IMG/VR virus record: IMGVR_UViG_3300017739_000090 | Location: 1 to 26,161 of that record | Strand: one strand, 5' to 3' | DNA from: a virus | Length of the DNA stretch: 26,161 bases | In this document: positions 5,601 to 16,965 of the stretch, one piece after another | Position numbering within the stretch: the stretch's first letter is position 1 | How the letters are laid out: every line of letters starts with the position of its first letter | The notes under the pieces: model-generated | What the model was told of the DNA's origin: nothing | What the model saw: the letters and a program-made list of their open reading frames with translations, nothing else | The model's database searches: none | Program-made: the position numbers and the translations under genes

Positions 5601-8600
5601 ATGGCAACAGTAGCGCAGGCTAGAAGAGCCATAGAGGTGTTAGAAGCTCGCGGCGATATAGCCGGAGCCGCTGCTATCCGAAGAGATTTAGATGCTGCCG
5701 GACTATCTGCTAGCACCACAGACTTTGAAGCGCAGGTTGCCGCAGAACGCCAGCAAAGACTAGAAAGGCGGGAGCAAGCCCGTGAAGCAAGCCAGCAGCG
5801 TCGGCTTGAATTAGCTGAATTAGATCGTGGAGCTATCTCCAGAGGTATCGACATTGGTACGGATCTGATAGGGCAAGCCACAGGGTCTACTCTTGAGGGT
5901 GTTGGTGGGCTGCTTGGCCTTGAAGGACTTGAGCAATATGGCGCTGAAGTAGCTCTCGAAAACGAAGCTGACATACAACGCAAAGCACGATTCCAAACCA
6001 GACTTGACGATGTTGAAGGCGTTGGAAGTTTTGGGTCTTTCTTAGGTGGTATTGCCGCAGAAAGCGCCCCACAGATGGGTGCTAGTATTGCTGGCGGTAT
6101 TGCAGGAGCTAAACTTGGTGCGGCTCTCGGCCCAGTAGGTGCGCTAATTGGTGGTATTGCCGGTGGTACTGCAGCTAACCTACCGTTTTTCTATGGTATG
6201 AACCGCGAGCGGCAAAAAGATGCTATAGATCAAGGACTGCGAACTGAAATAGACGAAGGTGCAGCCGCACTTACTGCCATACCTCAAGCAGCATTAGATA
6301 GCATTGTTGACCGCCTACTGGTTGGTGGGCTTGGACTTACCAGCCGTGCTGTTGGTGGCGGGGGTATATTTACTCGCGGGGTTAAAGGAGCAGGTACAGG
6401 TGCAGTAACAGAAGCACCCACAGAAGTAGGGCAACAGCTTCTTGAACGTGCTCAAGCAGGGCTACCTATAGACGACGAAGAAGCCCTCGCTGAATACCGC
6501 GAAGCTGGCATAGCTGGTGGCCTGTTAGGTGGTTCTATACGTGGTACTACCACTGTGTTTGGTGGTGACGTTGCAGCTAGAGAAGATGCCGAAATAGAGG
6601 CTAGGGAACAGCTACGAAGAGACAGTGAAGCCGCTGTAGCGCGTGGTCAAGCGCAAATAGAGATGTTCCCTACAGAAGAAGGGCCACGAGATGCTGCTGC
6701 GGAAGTTAGGGAACAGCTACGAAGAGACAGTGAAGCCGTAGAAACATCTCCAGATCAACTGTCACTGCCGGGGCTAGAACCATCCGTGCAGCTTTCGGAT
6801 GAAGAAGTAACCACTAGGCTAGCAGAGTTTACTGAGGAACAATTAGCAGATGCTATGGCTCCAGTGGGCACGCAGCTTGAATTAGTAGACGTGCCAAGGG
6901 CTGAAACAACTGACCAGTTAGCAGATACACTCGATGTCGAAGAGGTACGCGAGCGAGTATTTAAGGGTTTTAGCGAAAGTGCAAAACAAAAGCCCTTAGA
7001 TCAACTCACTACCAAGCAGAAAGCCACAATAGCCAAAAGAGCGCAAAAACTAGAATCGGCAGAGCTTGCCGCACTCGAAGAGGTATTAACACAAGAAGCT
7101 GCTACAAGGCAGGAAGCCGAACAACGTGACGCAGCAACGGCACAAGAAACTTTCCCGTCTCCTGCTGTAGGCCCACAATTACGAGGTTTGCCTTCGCCAG
7201 AAAGTGAACCTATTACGGTCACCCCTGAAGGAGAAGCAGTTACTGAACAGCAACGAAGACGAACTGACACGATAGCAGAACGGCAGCAACAGCAACTGAA
7301 TGCCGAGCAAGCTGCACGAGATGTGGTCACGGGTGATATGCCCGAAGCTGAAGTACGCCTAGCTAGAGAACGTGACGCGGTTGCCGAACGAACGCAGCCT
7401 GATTTGTTCCCCTCTGAACTTGTTGTAGCAGAAGAAGCCGTTACAGAACCTGAAGTTGTCCCGGCGGCTGAACCTTTGCGTGTAACATCTCAGACGCTAG
7501 ATTCTTTAGCGATCCCGCCCCGTGCCCCTATAAGAAAAGAAATCCCTGAAGGCGCGTCTTTAGACGATCCTGCTGTTTCTCCTAGAACTGGGAATCCGTT
7601 ACCCATAACTGTGCGTGAACGATTAGTCAGTTATGGTAGGAACAGAGGCTCAAAAGCCGTACAAGACAGCATTGATAATTTTCTACAAGGAGAACCTGAA
7701 GGCGTATCAACCAGACAACGTGCTTTACCTACTCGCGCTAAAAAAGAGCCAGATGCAGTAACAGATGTAGATACAGATACAGATACAGATACAGATACAG
7801 ATGCAGATTTAGACGAACTCATTGAACTACGAAATACAGAAAATAAAAATCCTGAACAAGAAACTAGGTTTTTAGAATTAGCCGGTAAAATTCGAGCACA
7901 AGCAGGCACACCCAAAGAGGGGATTGTTCGACGTAAAAGAAGCACTGAGGAAGTACGAAGACAAGCTGAATCTGAACCTGTTGAGATAGAATCAAAAGAA
8001 GAAACAGAGCTAGCTGCACTTCAAGACAGGGTAGACCTAGCTGTAGAAGAAGCTAGAAGCAAAAACGAGAAAAAATCGCCTTCCTTACCTCAAACAAAAG
8101 AAGCGCAAGATGTCAGGGAAGCTGTGCAAGACCTGCGAGAAAATGATCCTGATTACGCAGGGTTAGGCTATTCCGCAGCGAAAGATAAATACATAAAAGA
8201 ACAAGCTGGAATAATCTCAGCAGGTACACGAACCACGCCAGACGAAAGAGCCAAATACTTAATGAAAGTTAGGGATATGGGGCTGGATGTCAGGATGGCT
8301 ATGCGCGGGCTAGCACCGCCTATGTTTGGTTCTGGTAACGTAATATACGATGTTGATGCACCCTTAACGAATTCGGTCATGGACAAGGTGAATGCGGGGG
8401 ATGTACGTGGTGCGCTACAGGAGCTAGCAAAAACAACAAAAGACAAGCGTGCGGCTCGTGTAGCTAGAAAGTTGTTGAATTACGTAGGTACAACGCAGAT
8501 AGATGTGGTCAATATGCAGCCCATATCAGAGACCACTACGCTGCGTGAAGCTGACAATCTTGCCACCATGGTAGATACCCTGAAAGAGTATGGGCGAGCA

Positions 8601-11600
8601 CCTCTAGGTTTGTTTGTGCCTTCTGAAAACAGAATATTGTTGAACGCTAGCGGTGGACTTAACGAAGTCACTTTGTTGCATGAAATGACTCATGCGGCTA
8701 CGTTGAATGAAATAAAGACCAAACCAAACAGCGCCACCGTCAAAGATCTTAACAAGATATACGAAGCTGCAAAAGAGGTGTTAGGGACTGATCCTTATGG
8801 CACGACTAACCTAGAAGAGTTTGTTGCAGAAGCGTTTGCTAACCCAGAGTTTCAACGAGAGCTTGCTAGGATCAATGCAAAGGGCGAGCGACTAAGTTTG
8901 TTCCAAAGATTCAAGGCACGCATCGCACGGTTCCTTGGGCTTGATAGCTACGACGGAAATAAGTTCATTGGTGGCGACAAGTCAGCGCAAGCCGAAGTTA
9001 ATCGGCTAGTAGATAAGATACTAGCTACTGCACCTGCACGTTCTGGGTTGAACAACGTACCGTCGCTATCCGTCAAAGACGGGGTGCAGCAAGTCGCCAA
9101 AGAAATGATGGAGGCTAGCCAGTCTAAACTTTCTGATAAACAACGAAGAGCCAAAATCAAACGTGACTTCCTCGCTGTATTTTCTAAAGAAGACAACCCT
9201 CGGCTGAAAAAACTAATGCAGGGGGTCTTGGGTGTTCTACCTAACCAGCCCGTTTTCATAGAAATAGCCCAAGCTGTTGGCATTTCTGACGCAGATCTCG
9301 TAGGTAAAGCGATATTAGAGCAGCGGGGGGCACTGAGCGAATCTGAGGCACGAGTTAAAGCTGCGCTCGACCCTATTGTTAGGTGGTCAACCACAGCGTC
9401 AAAAGACACGATGGAAGCGTTTAACAATCTCGTGCATGACAGCACGGTAGATGAGGTAGACCCCTCACTAACACCAAAAGAAGCAGAGAAACGCTACGGT
9501 AACCAAAAAGTAGAGGGCACTAAGACTGGGCAGCTAAAAATAGACCGCTATAACGAGCTTCGTGCGGTATACAACAGTGCCACCTTTACTGCTGAAGGCA
9601 GAAAAAAGTATGTCGAGTTGCGTGACTTATACGCTGGTATAAACAAGGAGCTACAACAGTCCTTGTTGGGGCGCATAGATGGGTTAAACGTAGATGAGGC
9701 TGTAAAAACCAGCCTTAGAAACGACCTTTTCGCTAGGCTCATGGAATTATCAAGCATTGAGCCTTATTTCCCTCTAACACGTAAAGGTAAATACTGGTTG
9801 GCAGTACGAAACCCGGCAGACGGTGAGTTCGCTGTTGTTACTTACGAGACAATGGGGGATCGCAGCCAAGCACGAAGTAGATTTGAGGGGGAAGGGTATA
9901 ACGTAGAAACCATAGACCCCGACAACATGAAACGGTACACAGGCCAAGATGCGCCTTCTGGGTCTTTTGTCGCTCAAGTTCTTAGCGTGTTAAACACAAA
10001 AGGCATACCCGATTCTGCAAGGGAACAGGTTGCACGTCTGTATATCGAAGCACTGCCTGAAACGTCTTTTACCAAGTCTCTACTAAAGCGTAAGAAAACA
10101 CTGGGCTATGACATAGACGCTGTTGAAGCTGCGAGAAGTAAGGCATACGACTTAGCTCGACAGTCCGCAAGAATCCGTAGCAGTGCCAAGATCGAAGCCA
10201 CCATGAATGCCGTGAACGAAAAGTTCGCAGAAGAAAATGCAGATGCAGGTGACCGTGCTAGAGCCGTTCTCGCGGAAATGCAGAGCCGTGCAGATTTCGC
10301 TGTTAACCCACCGGCAGACAGTTTTGCAAAGAACGCAAACCGATTTGCGTTTATGTGGACTATTGGTTTTAACGCATCTTCTGCACTGGTCAACTTATCG
10401 CAAATCCCTTTGTTTGCTTACCCCATGCTAGCTGGCACTTACGGTTTCGTTAAAACTGGGGCAGCTATGAAGAACGCAGCTAAGTTGTTTAGTAGTTCTT
10501 ACGTACCTCATGCGCGAGAAGACTTTTCTAACGATCCACAAGAAGGTAAGAAATTCAGTGAGAAATACACGATACCTTCGTTGGATAATTACTACACTCG
10601 CAGAACTGAAGAAGATGGCACTGTTACGTATTCTGTTCGCACAGACTTGGATATACCTCAAGAAAGAAAAGAAGAGCTAGAGCGCATACGTCCACTGGTG
10701 CAACTCGCCGCCAAACGCGGAGAACTAAATACATCCTTCTTGGCAGAAACGCTTAGTGTAGATCAGTCGGGCCGTGAAACTAGCTTCCTAGACAAACTGA
10801 CTAATGCTTCTGCACTGATGTTCCATACCGCAGAAGTGATGAATCGGCAGACCGCAATGGTCATGGCCTACAACCTTGAACTAGACAAGCTGACTAACGG
10901 GAACCCCAAAAATGCTACAGCAGCGCAACAACAAGCGGCGGCAGAAGAGGCTTTATACAACACTCAACAAATTAACGGTGGGGCTACACTAGAAACCGGC
11001 CCTCGTTATGCTCGTGCAGGTCTTGGACGTATCGCTCTGATGTACAAGGGTTACGGCATTCAGATGTACTACACGATGTTCAAAACAGGTAAGCAGCTAG
11101 TACAGAACATGTTTCCGGGGGACAACGCTGAAAGTAGAGCGTTACGTAATCAAGCGTTCAAACAACTTGCAGGTATTCATTTGTCAGCAGTGTTCTTTGC
11201 TGGGCTGCAAGGTCTACCGTTGTATGGCGCTGTGTCTATGATCTACGACATGTTCCAAGATGATTACGAAGAAGATGCTGATGAGGCACTGCGTAGTTAT
11301 CTAGATAACGATGTGTTGTATAAAGGTGTGTTGTCTGAGGTAACAGGACTTGATGTATCTCAGCGCGTCAAACTAACCGATCTATTGTTTGAAGCAGACA
11401 AGTTCAACACTGATCCATCTCCAGAAGAATCATTTGGGCACTACTTTGGTGGCCCCGCATGGAGCGTAACTTCTAGAGGTATAGAAGGATTTAACGAAAT
11501 AATGGACGGTGAGTTTGAAAGAGGTATGGAGTCCATGCTGCCGGGGGCTGTGCGAAACGCCTATAAAGGTCTTATCAGATACCCTAGAGATGAAGGCATT

Positions 11601-11999
11601 TTAACTCGCCGTGGTGATCCTATATATGACGACATCACAACGGGCGACATACTTACACAGATATTGGGTTTCCCACCTGTAGGATACACACGGCAGATAG
11701 AAGAGACTTCTGCTGCTAAAAGCATGGAATCGGCGGCAAGGGACAAGCGTAGTAAGTTGATGAAACGATACTACATCGCTTTGAGATTTGGTGACTCTGA
11801 AGAAGCTAGAGAGGTTATGAAAGAGATCGTAGAGTTCAACCGTGAAGACATTATCAAGGTAGACCCCAAACTAGCTATAACGCCTGACACCATAGAACGA
11901 TCTATGCGTAGGCACCGAACCACTACCGCAAAAATGCACAACGGTGTGCTGCTATCTCCTTACATGAAATCTGCTGTGGAATCAGTTGGGTATCTGTAA
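5601..11999 (+). CDS. Giant large-polyvalent virion protein with HEMTH zincin domain
   Basis: A 2,132-residue protein. The ATG follows GGAGG and a nine-base spacer. N-terminal: a charged helical region, then Gly/Ala-rich hydrophobic stretches (about residues 145-198 and 300-320) of the type that can insert into membranes. Middle: a long acidic/Gln-rich linker (about 320-800) with duplicated REQLRRDSEA segments and several Q-x-x-L/M-F/P motifs. Residues 1027-1031 are HEMTH, with a downstream acidic helix (EEFVAEAF, 1072-1079) that could give the third zinc ligand, as in gluzincin-type proteases. C-terminal third: hydrophobic segments around 1580-1615 and 1857-1885 resembling the LPD38-type end of phage large polyvalent proteins. 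Such proteins are thought to be packaged and ejected with DNA. Protease activity is predicted, not shown. It is the last + strand gene before the convergent junction. Confidence 0.85.
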   Translation: MATVAQARRAIEVLEARGDIAGAAAIRRDLDAAGLSASTTDFEAQVAAERQQRLERREQAREASQQRRLELAELDRGAISRGIDIGTDLIGQATGSTLEGVGGLLGLEGLEQYGAEVALENEADIQRKARFQTRLDDVEGVGSFGSFLGGIAAESAPQMGASIAGGIAGAKLGAALGPVGALIGGIAGGTAANLPFFYGMNRERQKDAIDQGLRTEIDEGAAALTAIPQAALDSIVDRLLVGGLGLTSRAVGGGGIFTRGVKGAGTGAVTEAPTEVGQQLLERAQAGLPIDDEEALAEYREAGIAGGLLGGSIRGTTTVFGGDVAAREDAEIEAREQLRRDSEAAVARGQAQIEMFPTEEGPRDAAAEVREQLRRDSEAVETSPDQLSLPGLEPSVQLSDEEVTTRLAEFTEEQLADAMAPVGTQLELVDVPRAETTDQLADTLDVEEVRERVFKGFSESAKQKPLDQLTTKQKATIAKRAQKLESAELAALEEVLTQEAATRQEAEQRDAATAQETFPSPAVGPQLRGLPSPESEPITVTPEGEAVTEQQRRRTDTIAERQQQQLNAEQAARDVVTGDMPEAEVRLARERDAVAERTQPDLFPSELVVAEEAVTEPEVVPAAEPLRVTSQTLDSLAIPPRAPIRKEIPEGASLDDPAVSPRTGNPLPITVRERLVSYGRNRGSKAVQDSIDNFLQGEPEGVSTRQRALPTRAKKEPDAVTDVDTDTDTDTDTDADLDELIELRNTENKNPEQETRFLELAGKIRAQAGTPKEGIVRRKRSTEEVRRQAESEPVEIESKEETELAALQDRVDLAVEEARSKNEKKSPSLPQTKEAQDVREAVQDLRENDPDYAGLGYSAAKDKYIKEQAGIISAGTRTTPDERAKYLMKVRDMGLDVRMAMRGLAPPMFGSGNVIYDVDAPLTNSVMDKVNAGDVRGALQELAKTTKDKRAARVARKLLNYVGTTQIDVVNMQPISETTTLREADNLATMVDTLKEYGRAPLGLFVPSENRILLNASGGLNEVTLLHEMTHAATLNEIKTKPNSATVKDLNKIYEAAKEVLGTDPYGTTNLEEFVAEAFANPEFQRELARINAKGERLSLFQRFKARIARFLGLDSYDGNKFIGGDKSAQAEVNRLVDKILATAPARSGLNNVPSLSVKDGVQQVAKEMMEASQSKLSDKQRRAKIKRDFLAVFSKEDNPRLKKLMQGVLGVLPNQPVFIEIAQAVGISDADLVGKAILEQRGALSESEARVKAALDPIVRWSTTASKDTMEAFNNLVHDSTVDEVDPSLTPKEAEKRYGNQKVEGTKTGQLKIDRYNELRAVYNSATFTAEGRKKYVELRDLYAGINKELQQSLLGRIDGLNVDEAVKTSLRNDLFARLMELSSIEPYFPLTRKGKYWLAVRNPADGEFAVVTYETMGDRSQARSRFEGEGYNVETIDPDNMKRYTGQDAPSGSFVAQVLSVLNTKGIPDSAREQVARLYIEALPETSFTKSLLKRKKTLGYDIDAVEAARSKAYDLARQSARIRSSAKIEATMNAVNEKFAEENADAGDRARAVLAEMQSRADFAVNPPADSFAKNANRFAFMWTIGFNASSALVNLSQIPLFAYPMLAGTYGFVKTGAAMKNAAKLFSSSYVPHAREDFSNDPQEGKKFSEKYTIPSLDNYYTRRTEEDGTVTYSVRTDLDIPQERKEELERIRPLVQLAAKRGELNTSFLAETLSVDQSGRETSFLDKLTNASALMFHTAEVMNRQTAMVMAYNLELDKLTNGNPKNATAAQQQAAAEEALYNTQQINGGATLETGPRYARAGLGRIALMYKGYGIQMYYTMFKTGKQLVQNMFPGDNAESRALRNQAFKQLAGIHLSAVFFAGLQGLPLYGAVSMIYDMFQDDYEEDADEALRSYLDNDVLYKGVLSEVTGLDVSQRVKLTDLLFEADKFNTDPSPEESFGHYFGGPAWSVTSRGIEGFNEIMDGEFERGMESMLPGAVRNAYKGLIRYPRDEGILTRRGDPIYDDITTGDILTQILGFPPVGYTRQIEETSAAKSMESAARDKRSKLMKRYYIALRFGDSEEAREVMKEIVEFNREDIIKVDPKLAITPDTIERSMRRHRTTTAKMHNGVLLSPYMKSAVESVGYL
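6602..6738 (+). repeat. 32-bp exact direct repeat (35-codon spacing)
   Basis: The 32 bases at 6602-6633 are identical to 6707-6738, 105 bases apart, encoding REQLRRDSEA twice in the same frame. DNA-level identity implies a recent duplication inside the linker of the giant virion protein, unlike the diverged repeats elsewhere in the structural block. Confidence 0.9.
7761..7808 (+). repeat. Hexanucleotide microsatellite (acagat-type, 8 units)
   Basis: Eight consecutive hexamers ending in agat, six of them exactly acagat and five of these in uninterrupted tandem (7773-7802). They encode an alternating Thr-Asp tract in the linker of the giant virion protein. The six-base period keeps the frame, so slippage would change length without breaking the gene. 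Confidence 0.95.
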
Positions 12000-12322: not shown

Positions 12323-15226
12323 CTAATCCACGGCGTCGTATAAATTATCCTCGCCTGCGGCGTTATCTCCAAACAAGTTACAGTTAACAGCTATCACTCT
12401 GGTGTTGGGCATCATTGATCCTGCATGAGTGCCTTTACCGAGCCGCATCTGCACACGTTTACCACCCATGTTTTTCATCATACCTTCTACAAACGCACTG
12501 TAATCAATTTGGTGTGCAGCGCACCATGACTTCAAAAACTTTGGAACTATGTATGCTCTCTTTGTATCTGTCTCATAACGTGCTATCAGCTTTCCGCGTG
12601 GTAATGCGTCGGGTATGACGATGTTATCTAGTCCGTTACCAGAGGTGCTACGTAGATCATCCGTGCTTTTGAGAACCAGTATGTTGTTATAGTTTTCAGC
12701 TAGATAGTCACTCAACGTCTGCTCCACTGATGTACCCATATCCTCTATGGATTGTAAATTTGTCTTGAGTAGTTTGATCGTCCACTTGAACAACTCTCCC
12801 ATGTCGTAGTTCACCAGCCCTAGTTTGTTAGCGATATACGCGCCAGCTAGAGTGGTGGCTGCTCCGGCAGACCAGAAACGATTTTCTGCTGTAAGCCCTG
12901 CTTTCTCATCAACCATGCGTTGAAACCTAAGCACGAGCTTCTTAACATCTTCTAAGTTCTGTATGACATATTGAATGTAGATTAACCCCGCATGTCCGTA
13001 ATTATTCGTAAGGGCCATATCAAAACCATCGGTGTCTTTTTTGCTCTCAGTATCGCTAAATACACGCTCCGCTCTCCACTCTAATATCCTCTGTGCCTCT
13101 GCTTTCGGCGCTTGCTTATCCGCCGCAATACGTTGAACAACACTTGCGTTACCAGTGGTAACACATAAGAAGTGCCATGACTCACCACGGAGGCGTTCTT
13201 GGTTAGAGCCGCTGGACATGCGACCACGTTGTTCCCCAGCAGATATTTGGTAAACCAAATTACTTAGCTGCTTTCCTTCTGTGTTACTCAATTCATCTAT
13301 ATAGAACGGTAGGTTGCGTAACAGTTCTGCACGGTTGAATTTGAACGCATCAGTAGCAGCTTCAGGTGTCATCATACCCTTTTCAGCTCCCCATACTGAG
13401 GACGCTACTCGTACGGCTGCGGATTTACCGCACCCACTCAAGTTGTTATGTATATGCAACGCGCAAGCATTCTGAGGCAAAAAACTCATCAAGGGAGAAC
13501 CAAATGCTGTACACACGACATACTGGTGCATTACCAACTCAGGCCGCGTGTTGTAGAAATTAGCCATCTCTTTCCACGCTTCTAGCGTGCCTTTTGGTTG
13601 AAAGTACGAGATGTAAGCAGTGGTGGCTGTAGAGGGAGGGTTATGTTGAATATGGTCTGCGTGTATTTCTTTGTCGCCTAGAACGAAGGCGCTCATGCTA
13701 TCGTCAGTCCAACCGAATTGTCGATGTGCCGTATTTGCTGTAACGGTAGCTTGTAATTCGTTTACCCAAGTAATCATATATTGCATCAAGTCGTCTATTC
13801 GTGGGACGGCGACACCTTGCATCGCCATGTTCTTTCTAAACTCTTCACGAGAAGTCATCGCCGTAAGCGGCATCGTGAACTCTCGCACACCGTCTTTGGG
13901 CAGATGTATTCTACAAACTACAGATTCGCCTGCCTCTGCATCCAGTAAGCGTTGCGTTATGTATACGTCATGGTGATATATGACGTGTTCATCGACCTCT
14001 CCGTCTGGGGTTATGTTCCTGACGTACACACCGCCGTTCTGACCGCGAAAGTATGGGCGAGGGTATAAAGGTATAACGTGTTGTGTAGAAACATCCTGAC
14101 ATGCCAACTTTCCAAGTAGCGTACCTTGACCTGTTTGTAGTTGCTGATCCTGAAAGTCATTTGCATATGTACCGTCTTCGTTAATTTCTGCTTCTGATAC
14201 CCTACGTCCCAGTGTAATCGGTGAACTGATCTTGCCCCAGTGTGGGCAGTCAGTGCATATACCCCCTTCGTTTTCATCGAATGTAGTGCAACGGTACGGG
14301 CCTTTAATTAGATCCAACTTTTCGAGCGTTAGTTCTGGCGTATATTCGGGATGTTTCTCAGATATTTTCTGTGCGGCTTTGTCACCGTCTTCGCAAAACT
14401 TAGCGATGGACAACCCTGCTCTCCACATCGGCTCACTTGCTTCTGCTTGACCTTTGATTATACGAGCTAGTTGCTTACACCCTTTGTCGCTAGATGATTT
14501 TAAGAGAATGTCTTTGAAACTGTATTTGAGGTTCTGAATGATCGCTTCGCGTAGGTTAGCTGGCCCCTCTTCAGCTATGCGTTTCTGGGGCACTGGTATC
14601 GTGTCCAAACCTATTTTGCTGGCAAAGAAATCAAAGTTAATCGCGTCAGGTTTTTTATTGACGAGTTCCACTGGCGCTGGCGTTTCAGGTTTGTGGTTGT
14701 GTGTACCCACTACCCGCAGCACTCGCGCAGCATCTGCTGGCACTGCTGGGTCTATCTCTAACCCAAAGTCTCTGCACTTGCGTTTAAACTGTTCGGCTAC
14801 CGGCTTCCACTGCTCTACTGGTATAGACTCTGATAGAACCCAGTAGACGTGCACACCGCGCCCAGAGTTAACTATAAGAGGTTTTGGTAACTCTAGAGAT
14901 GTACAGAAGTCTTGCAGCCTGCGTAGCGCCTCCCCCTGCGTGGCAAACCCTTTGCCTTCGGCTGCTTTATCTTCTCCGCAATCTAGATCTAGGAAAAAAG
15001 ATTTAAGCTGTTTAACGTCTTCTGCTCGACGGGTATCTCTCGCAAAGTTGCCTAATGCGAAATAGGTGTCCCAACCTTCTGAGTCGTAGTAGTCAGCCGC
15101 CTCTGCTAGTTCATCCAGCGACTGAAAATATACTTGCCTATGTCTGCCTAATGTTGAGTTGCTCCGAAAGAGGACATACGTCCCCTCTGGGGGTAGCACC
15201 CAGTGTAAAAATTCTATCGTATTCAT
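12323..15226 (-). CDS. AEP-type primase fused to DUF927-like helicase/ATPase
   Basis: Start chosen at ATG 15226 (967 aa). An upstream in-frame ATG at 15274 would add 16 residues and lies inside a hairpin arm of the leader. The N-terminal domain has archaeo-eukaryotic primase features: FFLDLD (Asp80, Asp82), SGRGVHVYW (about 121-129) and a following RVLRVVGTHNHK segment. A cysteine cluster (about 312-330, ICTDCPHWG) may bind zinc. The C-terminal half resembles DUF927-family ATPases: Walker A LSGCGKSAA (Lys601), then FYIDELSN as Walker B, and a segment with ISAGEQRGR. By family knowledge it would prime replication and unwind DNA at the fork, replacing a T7 gp4-type primase-helicase. The stop abuts the next gene. 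Confidence 0.88.
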   Translation of the reverse strand: MNTIEFLHWVLPPEGTYVLFRSNSTLGRHRQVYFQSLDELAEAADYYDSEGWDTYFALGNFARDTRRAEDVKQLKSFFLDLDCGEDKAAEGKGFATQGEALRRLQDFCTSLELPKPLIVNSGRGVHVYWVLSESIPVEQWKPVAEQFKRKCRDFGLEIDPAVPADAARVLRVVGTHNHKPETPAPVELVNKKPDAINFDFFASKIGLDTIPVPQKRIAEEGPANLREAIIQNLKYSFKDILLKSSSDKGCKQLARIIKGQAEASEPMWRAGLSIAKFCEDGDKAAQKISEKHPEYTPELTLEKLDLIKGPYRCTTFDENEGGICTDCPHWGKISSPITLGRRVSEAEINEDGTYANDFQDQQLQTGQGTLLGKLACQDVSTQHVIPLYPRPYFRGQNGGVYVRNITPDGEVDEHVIYHHDVYITQRLLDAEAGESVVCRIHLPKDGVREFTMPLTAMTSREEFRKNMAMQGVAVPRIDDLMQYMITWVNELQATVTANTAHRQFGWTDDSMSAFVLGDKEIHADHIQHNPPSTATTAYISYFQPKGTLEAWKEMANFYNTRPELVMHQYVVCTAFGSPLMSFLPQNACALHIHNNLSGCGKSAAVRVASSVWGAEKGMMTPEAATDAFKFNRAELLRNLPFYIDELSNTEGKQLSNLVYQISAGEQRGRMSSGSNQERLRGESWHFLCVTTGNASVVQRIAADKQAPKAEAQRILEWRAERVFSDTESKKDTDGFDMALTNNYGHAGLIYIQYVIQNLEDVKKLVLRFQRMVDEKAGLTAENRFWSAGAATTLAGAYIANKLGLVNYDMGELFKWTIKLLKTNLQSIEDMGTSVEQTLSDYLAENYNNILVLKSTDDLRSTSGNGLDNIVIPDALPRGKLIARYETDTKRAYIVPKFLKSWCAAHQIDYSAFVEGMMKNMGGKRVQMRLGKGTHAGSMMPNTRVIAVNCNLFGDNAAGEDNLYDAVD

Positions 15227-15249
15227 GCTTGCACCCAATGCCGAGGGTA

Positions 15250-15309
15250 CGCTGTGACAGAGATGTCGGCGCATCTTTTTCGGGGAAAGGAGAACCCCTA
15301 GTCACAGCG
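15250..15309 (-). promoter_or_regulatory. Structured leader before primase-helicase (three-way-junction-like)
   Basis: A perfect 9-bp inverted repeat (CGCTGTGAC at 15250-15258, GTCACAGCG at 15301-15309) encloses two smaller hairpins. On the - strand these are GGGG/CCCC with a 9-nt loop and AGATG/CATCT with a 6-nt loop, separated by a GAAAA linker. The element lies in the 99 nt between the ssDNA-binding gene stop and the ATG at 15226, ending 23 bases before that ATG. It could be a processing site, an attenuator, a protein-binding operator or a structured 5' leader. No known riboswitch class was matched. Confidence 0.6.
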
Positions 15310-15325: not shown

Positions 15326-16063
15326 TTAGTCATCCCAACCTTCAACAATGGCACTCAGATCGTCGTCATCTTCCTTGGGTGCGGGGGCAGATTTCTTCAC
15401 GACCTTTTTTGGTTCCTCTACTTGAGAGGTGTCTGGTTCGTCACCGAAAATGTCATCGCTATCATCTTCAGGCGCATCTATCGTACTACGAGTTGTATCA
15501 CTAAACGGGTTATCAGGTTGCGCTACAAAGCCGCCGTTTACGACGCCGAAAGGCGAACGTGCCGCTAAAGGCTTGTAGTCGATGACTTGTACGCCGTTAA
15601 TCCTCAAACTAACGCCATAACCGTTGATAGCGTATGGCACAAACGTAAATGCCACGTTTACAATGCTGCCTGTGGTCAGTTGGAAGTCTGACGGTAGCTT
15701 ATTGTTTTGAGCATCGACTTGCAGTGGAGGCGTTGTCTTGTCGCTGCCGTATGCGCCTTTCAATCTGGCCTTACCTACCCAGCGACCACCTTCCTGCTTT
15801 TTCAGCGGGTTAGGAAACTTATCAGGCCAACCATCTTTTTTCTCAGCTTTGTAAGCGACAGCCATCGCCTTATGTAGCGCCTTAGCTTTCGTTGCATCCA
15901 TGACAAAGGACATTTCGTATGCAGCATTGTCATCCAAAGCATCGCACTTCACAGAAGCACCTTTGCCGTTATTAGCCATTTGATCGAACTTGTATGTGGT
16001 ATCGAGTTTTGGGTATAGAGCCTCGACGTTCTCTATCGTGTAGTACTTGTAATCGTCAGCCAT
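15326..16063 (-). CDS. Single-stranded DNA-binding protein, Enc34/gp2.5-like (DUF2815 type)
   Basis: The 245-residue product has a beta-rich core (about residues 20-165) containing KARLKGAYG and a hydrophobic strand region (VNVAFTFVPYAINGYGVSLRI), followed by a long disordered acidic tail ending DDDDLSAIVEGWDD. An OB-fold-like core with an acidic, aromatic-ended C-terminal tail is the hallmark of phage ssDNA-binding proteins such as T7 gp2.5 and the Enc34/DUF2815 family. The tail recruits partners such as polymerase and helicase. It sits immediately upstream of the primase-helicase in the same operon. The start has a strong Shine-Dalgarno sequence (AGGAG) that overlaps the previous stop. Assignment is by architecture and context. 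Confidence 0.8.
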   Translation of the reverse strand: MADDYKYYTIENVEALYPKLDTTYKFDQMANNGKGASVKCDALDDNAAYEMSFVMDATKAKALHKAMAVAYKAEKKDGWPDKFPNPLKKQEGGRWVGKARLKGAYGSDKTTPPLQVDAQNNKLPSDFQLTTGSIVNVAFTFVPYAINGYGVSLRINGVQVIDYKPLAARSPFGVVNGGFVAQPDNPFSDTTRSTIDAPEDDSDDIFGDEPDTSQVEEPKKVVKKSAPAPKEDDDDLSAIVEGWDD

Positions 16064-16075: not shown

Positions 16076-16723
16076 GTTGGCTATCGTGAACCCTTCAGTC
16101 GCAGTGAAGGGCGAACCTTCACGGTTGTGTGGTGTGATGTCGAAAGCGATTGCCGCTAACGTGTCATCTGCATCCACTATCTCTCTAACTAAAATCAGTT
16201 CCTGTTCTTCTAGTGGTCGTTGTGGGTAAAAGAACAGCTTTGGCACAGCACTAGCCGCATCAAAACTTATTCTCGTCACCACTGCTGCACTGGGCGTTCC
16301 ATGCCCAGATAAAAATTTGGCGTACGCTTGTAGAGGCATGGAGCTTCTACCTACGGCCTTACCAAATATCGACGTGGCAGGTACTTGCAGTTGGTACACC
16401 GTATCTAACGCACGCTCTTCAACGATTGCTAGACGTTGACTAAATCTGCAAGCCCTACCCTGTCCGTCGCCAGATCCTCTTATGTTGTTAGCACAGTCCA
16501 TACAACGTGCGCTCTGTTTCTGTCCATCTGGCACTTCGGGTGCGGGTCTCTGAGTATCGCTAGACCAACAAGTCGGAAAGCGTTTGGCGTTTGGATCGAA
16601 AGCATCTTTGTAATATGCGCGGGATACTCCTGCTGCATTCACGATGATTACGTCTATTGACCTGCTGTCCGGTTGGTGATCTAACCCAGTAAACTTGTTA
16701 CCCAGTAAACTGACTCGACGCAT
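16073..16723 (-). CDS. Conserved phage protein with Cys4 cluster
   Basis: A 216-residue protein. Four cysteines, Cys52 (FPTCWSSD), Cys74 and Cys77 (RCMDC) and Cys92 (GRACRF), are spaced like a zinc-binding site. The segment from Cys52 to the LAIVEE strand is the most family-like part. I recall phage hypothetical proteins with the same CWSSD, CxxC and G-x-x-CR arrangement near replication genes, but no activity is established. The C-terminal half is a mixed alpha/beta region without recognisable motifs. The start overlaps the upstream HTH gene stop (TAATG), and the gene precedes the ssDNA-binding gene by nine bases. A replication or recombination accessory role is a context-based guess. Confidence 0.75.
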   Translation of the reverse strand: MRRVSLLGNKFTGLDHQPDSRSIDVIIVNAAGVSRAYYKDAFDPNAKRFPTCWSSDTQRPAPEVPDGQKQSARCMDCANNIRGSGDGQGRACRFSQRLAIVEERALDTVYQLQVPATSIFGKAVGRSSMPLQAYAKFLSGHGTPSAAVVTRISFDAASAVPKLFFYPQRPLEEQELILVREIVDADDTLAAIAFDITPHNREGSPFTATEGFTIAN

Positions 16724-16965
16724 TACACATCTTCGTCAGGATCAAAGTCAGTCGGGTTGAACCCTTCTTCTGCTGGTGCTTCCTCATCTGCGCTGCCTTT
16801 CAACAGAGCTTCTGCGATACTCGCCAGCGCAAATCTTTGAGTGTGCCCTATTTTGATGTAGGTATTCTCTGGTATGACCCCATCCCGAACCCATTTACGG
16901 GTCGTGGATAATGACACACCAAAGTGCTTCGCAACATCTTCTATGGGTACTAACTGCTCCATCAT
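16723..16965 (-). CDS. Small HTH DNA-binding protein (excisionase/MerR-type fold)
   Basis: The 80-residue product contains VPIEDVAKHFGVSLSTTRKW (about residues 6-25), then an RDG turn and a short wing-like segment (IKIGHTQRFALASI). This is the pattern of HTH_17/excisionase-family domains. The tail from about residue 58 is strongly acidic. A good Shine-Dalgarno sequence (AAGGAA) precedes the paired ATGATG start. The gene overlaps its neighbours at both ends (ATGA upstream, TAATG downstream). In phages such proteins act as small transcription regulators or recombination directionality factors. With no integrase visible, a regulator of the replication operon is the more economical inference. Confidence 0.8.
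   Translation of the reverse strand: MMEQLVPIEDVAKHFGVSLSTTRKWVRDGVIPENTYIKIGHTQRFALASIAEALLKGSADEEAPAEEGFNPTDFDPDEDV

Follow-up and report, generated by a model that had tools for sequence, protein, structure and literature searches.

The window analysed here, a stretch of viral DNA of 26,161 nucleotides, carries on its minus strand the gene for an Enc34-type ssDNA-binding protein (SSB; 15326..16063) and, downstream of it, that for a DUF927 primase-helicase of 967 aa (12323..15226; Pfam PF06048, E 7.7e-27). The SSB gene was assigned from a weak match to Pfam PF10991 (E 6e-4, below the cut-off of that family) together with DNA similarity to the annotated ssDNA-binding protein of Roseobacter phage CRP-823. 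Upstream of SSB, the replication operon also contains a small helix-turn-helix gene (16723-16965, minus strand; HTH_17 just under the Pfam cut-off), and the oppositely oriented half of the window holds a 2132-aa open reading frame (5601-11999, plus strand). Between SSB and primase-helicase lies a 60-nt three-way junction (15250-15309, minus strand) that begins 16 nt past the SSB stop codon and ends 23 nt ahead of the start codon at 15226. A closing stem of 9 bp (P1) encloses two hairpins of 4 bp (P2) and 5 bp (P3), exactly as the initial annotation had described, except that the RNA is the minus strand.

Read 5' to 3' along the minus strand, the element starts with the 5' strand of P1 (CGCUGUGAC, 15301..15309), which is followed by the junction strand J1/2 (UA, 15299..15300), invariant both in our alignment A3 and in the Rfam int-alpA consensus. 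The P2 hairpin (GGGG-UUCUCCUUU-CCCC, 15282..15298), of which shorter and longer versions exist among relatives, has a loop of 9 nt and is connected by J2/3 (GAAAA, or GAARA in the family; 15277..15281) to the P3 hairpin (AGAUG-CGCCGA-CAUCU, 15261..15276). The 6-nt loop of the latter, L3 (CGCCGA, 15266..15271; UGCGCCGACA with the flanking P3 bases), is the proposed switching loop. J3/1 (CU, 15259..15260), like J2/3, is supported by the Rfam consensus and the family alignment, and leads into the 3' strand of P1 (GUCACAGCG, 15250..15258). The three helices and the linkers are those of the minimum free energy structure. Downstream of P1 come two short segments complementary to L3: site A (UCGGC, 15240..15244), which can form a pseudoknot with GCCGA of the loop (duplex -9.1 kcal/mol), and a Shine-Dalgarno-like GGGUG with the overlapping site B (15230..15236), in which GGUGCA (15235-15230) pairs with UGCGCC of L3 (duplex -10.5 kcal/mol). 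The start codon of the primase-helicase follows at 15224..15226 and is the one used in all close relatives. Another candidate start, the ATG at 15274, does lie inside the element, in P3, as had been pointed out, but the idea that folding of the element decides start choice did not survive comparison with relatives: homologous proteins start at the equivalent of 15226, the same ATG in L010 lies out of frame, 47 nt from the real start, and in L013 no ATG is present at this place. Relatives do not preserve the frame that opens at 15274, and 15226 is therefore taken as the start.

The minus strand of the element folds with -23.6 kcal/mol, compared with -13.0 +/- 3.0 kcal/mol for shuffled sequences (z -3.58; 2 of 200 shuffles were as good), and thus folds better than shuffled sequence in the comparison proposed in the initial annotation. 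The plus strand folds as well (z -3.75), and thus folding energy alone cannot pick the strand. That minus is the relevant RNA strand follows from the orientation of the SSB and primase-helicase genes, both of which are encoded on it, and the choice is decided, as judged from pairing and covariation in homologous leaders, by evolution.

A protein-based rather than an RNA search yielded 79 IMG/VR loci with a homologous gene, and comparison of their leaders revealed the same junction with changing stems (CGCUGUGAC/GUCACAGCG, CACUAUGGC/GCCAUAGUG and CAGUAUGGC/GCCAUACUG for P1). For the analysis of covariation, 20 distinct leaders including that of the window were aligned, most of them from the protein search and six from later loci. 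Standard pairs occupy 99.5% of the pair cells, whereas controls in which the pairing was slid reach 30-52%. Both sides have changed at 8 pairs (4.3 in shuffles, 0-2 in slid controls), giving 29 double-changed cells (7.8 in shuffles, 0-4 in slid controls); the shuffle control is inflated by related sequences, while the slid control retains relatedness. Double compensatory changes affect five of the nine P1 pairs and two pairs of P3, among them its first pair, which has gone from G-C to A-U in the clade of the window. In this clade the normally invariant G-C pairs beside the junction are now A-U on both strands, and L009 represents an intermediate, with an A-C mismatch at a junction-flanking pair. 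The covariation check suggested at the outset thus came out in favour of the element, which, on this comparative evidence, is a real and conserved RNA structure. In the sets collected by pattern (see below) the core sequence is fixed by construction and a few pairs are fixed by the stem filter; statements on conservation are therefore based on the set selected mostly by protein and on those pairs that the filter leaves free, namely the outer pairs of P1. It is hard to reconcile these data with a DNA-level element, such as a replication origin or a recombination or protein-binding site, or with a chance inverted repeat. Folding of both strands and the location in a replication module would fit such an element, but G-U pairs are kept on the coding strand (in the 20-leader alignment they are clearly more numerous than unpaired cells), the conserved joints are asymmetric, and the position before the start codons of many different genes is consistent in strand. 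We regard this explanation as highly improbable.

P1 varies in length from 4 to 10 bp among relatives, and in L053-L057 it is reduced to 4 bp with the junction bases kept. This bears on the possibility that the element serves RNA processing or 3' stabilisation, for example as an RNase III cut between cistrons or as a barrier protecting the upstream mRNA. The intergenic position and the stable closing stem would suit such a role, as would the plain hairpins that are found in place of a three-way junction at the same leader position in distant primase-helicase homologues (L047-L049, L051, L056, L067-L069, L076-L079). Against it, what is constrained is the junction, together with L3 and sites A and B, and not a long stem, and P1 is followed by UACCCUCGGC with no U-tract, hence no intrinsic terminator. 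An RNase III site as main function, one of the initial proposals, would be expected to show a long, conserved and uninterrupted stem, whereas here the junction sequence is conserved and the sequence of P1 changes freely; processing or stabilisation in general appears unlikely to us. A hammerhead ribozyme was also considered and discarded, because the junction strands are UA, GAARA and CU instead of CUGAUGA and GAAA, and no Rfam match to this class was obtained. In Roseobacter phage CRP-823, too, the leader of the primase-helicase gene holds a plain hairpin at this place (L322, 5640-5680).

A degenerate pattern derived from the same-gene leaders occurs in very many IMG/VR contigs, ahead of unrelated genes. 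A first, loose DNA pattern mixed true members with chance matches and was replaced by a longer one; in GTDB genomes, more than half of the pattern matches fail the stem test. When 16 pattern-matching contigs were scanned with cmscan, seven (L130, L168, L171, L174, L186, L187, L194) were found to contain int-alpA RNA (RF02996), and one of these matches (L171, 47.8 bits) lies in front of a gene homologous to that of the window. The Rfam gathering score for this family, 35.8 bits, is exceeded in the records of 4 of 15 same-gene relatives: besides L171, these are L206 (40.5 bits) and L063 and L066 (36.1 bits each). The window copy itself gives no relevant Rfam match, neither at the gathering score nor at E<=10, so int-alpA was recognised through its relatives only, and no riboswitch family of Rfam is matched by the window or by the 16 contigs. 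To test homology without circularity, a covariance model (R1) was trained on 38 members that exclude all DUF927 leaders. In 56 sources (586 kb) it produced 37 matches, with E values from 2.7e-8, all of them at the DUF927 leader position. With filters off the element of the window receives 30.9 bits from R1 (E 4e-8 in 201 nt, or about 5e-6 when scaled to the window), while a search of the window with default filters missed it. The window shares with int-alpA the three helices and the junction strands UA, GAARA and CU. Taken at the level of sequence and position, the element is a divergent relative of int-alpA, positionally orthologous to formal members and below Rfam's own threshold.

The name int-alpA reflects a location between an integrase gene and alpA. 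The window, with its SSB and DUF927 genes, departs from this context, as do other members, which precede many types of gene. Matches to the Rfam model are present in 47 of 291 genomes of one bacterial class, and one Desulfobacterales genome (G017) has three int-alpA-type matches (L432, L435, L436). Pseudomonas phage D3, a classical cultured phage, contains a degenerate int-alpA-type element (21.5 bits) upstream of orf11, before a KilA-N gene (L323:1109-1172); the loop of the third hairpin of this element is complementary to 7 nt (GAUGAGC) that lie immediately ahead of the Shine-Dalgarno sequence. In the literature searched, no functional work on int-alpA RNA was retrieved, one paper mentioning the name in passing, and searches on three-way-junction leaders and orphan riboswitches of phages returned nothing on this element.

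Members of the family sit between the stop codon of one gene and the start codon of the next, and most begin 3-20 nt past the upstream stop. The upstream genes include those for major tail proteins (L186, L356, L389), a tail sheath (L212), a major head protein (L173), a virion structural protein (L337), a portal (L151), the SSB of the window and also HTH regulators. Among the genes downstream are those for DUF927 primases, DUF1376 proteins, KilA-N, Rha and BRO regulators, integrases, HNH, NUMOD3 and GIY-YIG endonucleases, a DnaB-like helicase, a methyltransferase and glycosyltransferases. Such surroundings suit a device for setting or gating how strongly a single gene is translated within a strongly expressed operon. 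The element had also been proposed to be a translational operator bound by a replication protein. The operator part of this proposal fits the conserved junction, the covariation and a loop predicted to pair with the ribosome-binding site, whereas the occurrence of the element ahead of such unrelated genes as integrase, homing-endonuclease and tail genes speaks against a regulator dedicated to this replication operon.

It is conceivable that the element is simply a fixed intercistronic attenuator, a structured spacer by which the second gene is translated less, or independently of the ribosomes that leave the first, with nothing being sensed. Abundant proteins such as SSB, major tail protein or sheath would then be made in excess over primase, chaperones and endonucleases, and the element indeed directly follows genes for major tail, sheath, major head, virion structural, portal and SSB proteins and precedes genes probably needed in small amounts. 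Yet unpaired junction bases would not have to be conserved in such an attenuator, nor would it require site A as a decoy in competition with site B. We consider it the less probable reading, albeit one that deserves to be taken seriously. Another scenario, implied by the Rfam label 'sRNA', is that of a small RNA acting in trans. A -10 box is found 3-9 nt ahead of P1 in a minority of members, in keeping with this label. It does not explain the short and regular distance to the next start codon ahead of unrelated genes, nor why L3 fits the downstream Shine-Dalgarno sequence of its own leader better than those of other members, and we deem it quite unlikely.

In most relatives L3 is complementary to a site A shortly after P1 and to a separate site B that overlaps the Shine-Dalgarno sequence and mostly ends 1-11 nt ahead of the start codon (start codons in the member sets being assigned automatically). 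The best pair of non-overlapping sites was scored for each leader and compared with the score obtained when the L3 of each leader was exchanged for those of other members. Both sites are strong in 46 of 64 leaders from IMG/VR and GTDB (set 1), against 14.3 +/- 2.9 with swapped loops. A hold-out (set 2), fetched after set 1 with a different P1 closing sequence, has both sites in 29 of 36 members with distinct L3 (null 10.1 +/- 2.2), and in a third set, defined by the Rfam model in genomes of one bacterial class, from which the script parsed 14 of the fetched loci and 12 leaders were scored, all 12 have both (null 4.8 +/- 1.5). The swapped-loop control rules out the trivial explanation that every L3 is a generic anti-Shine-Dalgarno. 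Over 100 relatives together suggest that this loop can pair with either a decoy or the ribosome-binding site. In the window, the pairings with site A and site B use overlapping bases of L3 (GCCGA and UGCGCC) and are thus mutually exclusive. Site A is paired with L3 in all 20 same-gene leaders, with a double change from G-C to A-U in two; in L181 and L242, loop and site A have changed together (ACCGA/UCGGU), which at the sequence level is direct compensatory evidence for the pseudoknot in the DUF927 gene family. Site B is paired in 95% of cells of the window clade, within which its covariation does not rise significantly above shuffles. Since sites A and B are alike, local duplication of a Shine-Dalgarno-like sequence could explain part of the signal. 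About a third of the DUF927-associated members (L099, L116, L159, L171, L206, L211, L215, L227) keep the junction yet lack convincing L3 sites; even among DUF927 leaders the switch is thus not universal. Together with the plain hairpins of distant homologues, this indicates that the leader evolves freely between devices. Small hairpins that present the Shine-Dalgarno sequence in their loop are enriched before the start codon (mean stem score 10.3 compared with 8.8 +/- 0.2; n=97, z 7.1), many of them exact, for example AUCGCAU-AAGGG-AUGCGAU in L348. An early idea, pairing of J2/3 (CCGAAGAG) with CUCUCGG, was dropped once L3 pairing proved general.

The most appealing scenario, and in our judgement the probable one, is that this divergent int-alpA relative works in cis, switching or attenuating translation of the gene that immediately follows it, a role that we infer, like every functional statement made here, from sequence. 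The initial suggestion of a small structured regulatory RNA is in line with it, given the conserved junction, the covariation and the complementarity of the loop to the ribosome-binding site. Three helices would meet in a junction with the conserved strands UA, GAARA and CU. L3 would pair either with site A, immediately behind the 3' strand of P1, so that the Shine-Dalgarno sequence stays free, or with site B, which overlaps that sequence, blocking the ribosome, such that site B pairing represses translation and site A pairing relieves the repression. For the change of base pairing by which a riboswitch would uncover or mask the ribosome-binding site, the two exclusive L3 sites provide support at the computational level. 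Conservation of the unpaired joints suggests that they may bind some factor, and rather than imposing a fixed low output the junction may sense a signal, be it a metabolite, a protein or a ribosome that completes translation of the upstream gene; the gene context points to no particular ligand.

A bolder and more speculative extension, which we put forward tentatively, is that int-alpA-type RNAs form a large class of riboswitch-like translational switches of phages, placed before unrelated selfish or replication genes, whose junction senses a common intracellular cue of infection. Many of them would dimerise through palindromic L2 loops, transcript dosage thereby becoming part of the signal, and the branch of the window would control a replicative primase-helicase. 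The L2 loops of many members (L235, L250, L251, L255, L262, L263, L278, L290 and others) contain a palindromic hexamer, different from member to member (GCATGC, CTGCAG, CCATGG, ACCGGT, TCCGGA), as a kissing-loop homodimer would need. Palindromes of at least 6 nt occur in 16 of 61 L2 loops of set 1 (4.3 expected) and, weakly enriched, in 7 of 31 of the hold-out (2.4 expected). They show no enrichment in the Rfam-defined set 3 and are absent from most of the window clade, and dimerisation is therefore kept as a side hypothesis.

If the preferred reading of a cis-acting switch is true, it would explain by what means phages set or gate the output of individual genes within strongly expressed operons, here that of primase relative to SSB, and it would offer a compact natural part for expression control. 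Elements of this type occur in numerous viral contigs as well as in bacterial genomes of several phyla. Our reading recasts int-alpA, typed 'sRNA' in Rfam, as a cis element with an explicit switch in which L3 chooses between decoy and Shine-Dalgarno sequence, whereas the Rfam model line has neither the pseudoknot nor site B. The likeness itself is close: the junction is the same, with joints C-UA-G, C-GAAAA-G and C-CU-G, and the Rfam consensus also has an L3 (CCUUU) complementary to the tail (AAGGG). The window differs in that the usual G-C at two junction-flanking positions is replaced by compensated A-U, and in its score below the cut-off. Glutamine (glnA and downstream-peptide) riboswitches are three-way junctions in which the third loop base-pairs with the segment that directly follows the closing stem on its 3' side; this arrangement of loop and 3' strand is the one proposed for the window, but the core sequence is different. 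Homing-endonuclease genes of T-even phages, such as that of I-TevI, have a leader hairpin that hides the ribosome-binding site. In these too a structure in the leader of a phage gene hides the ribosome-binding site, as it would in the window, and several of the relatives described here precede HNH or GIY-YIG endonuclease genes. The I-TevI-type leader, however, is a simple hairpin present only in a longer early transcript, whereas the window type is a junction with a decoy site.
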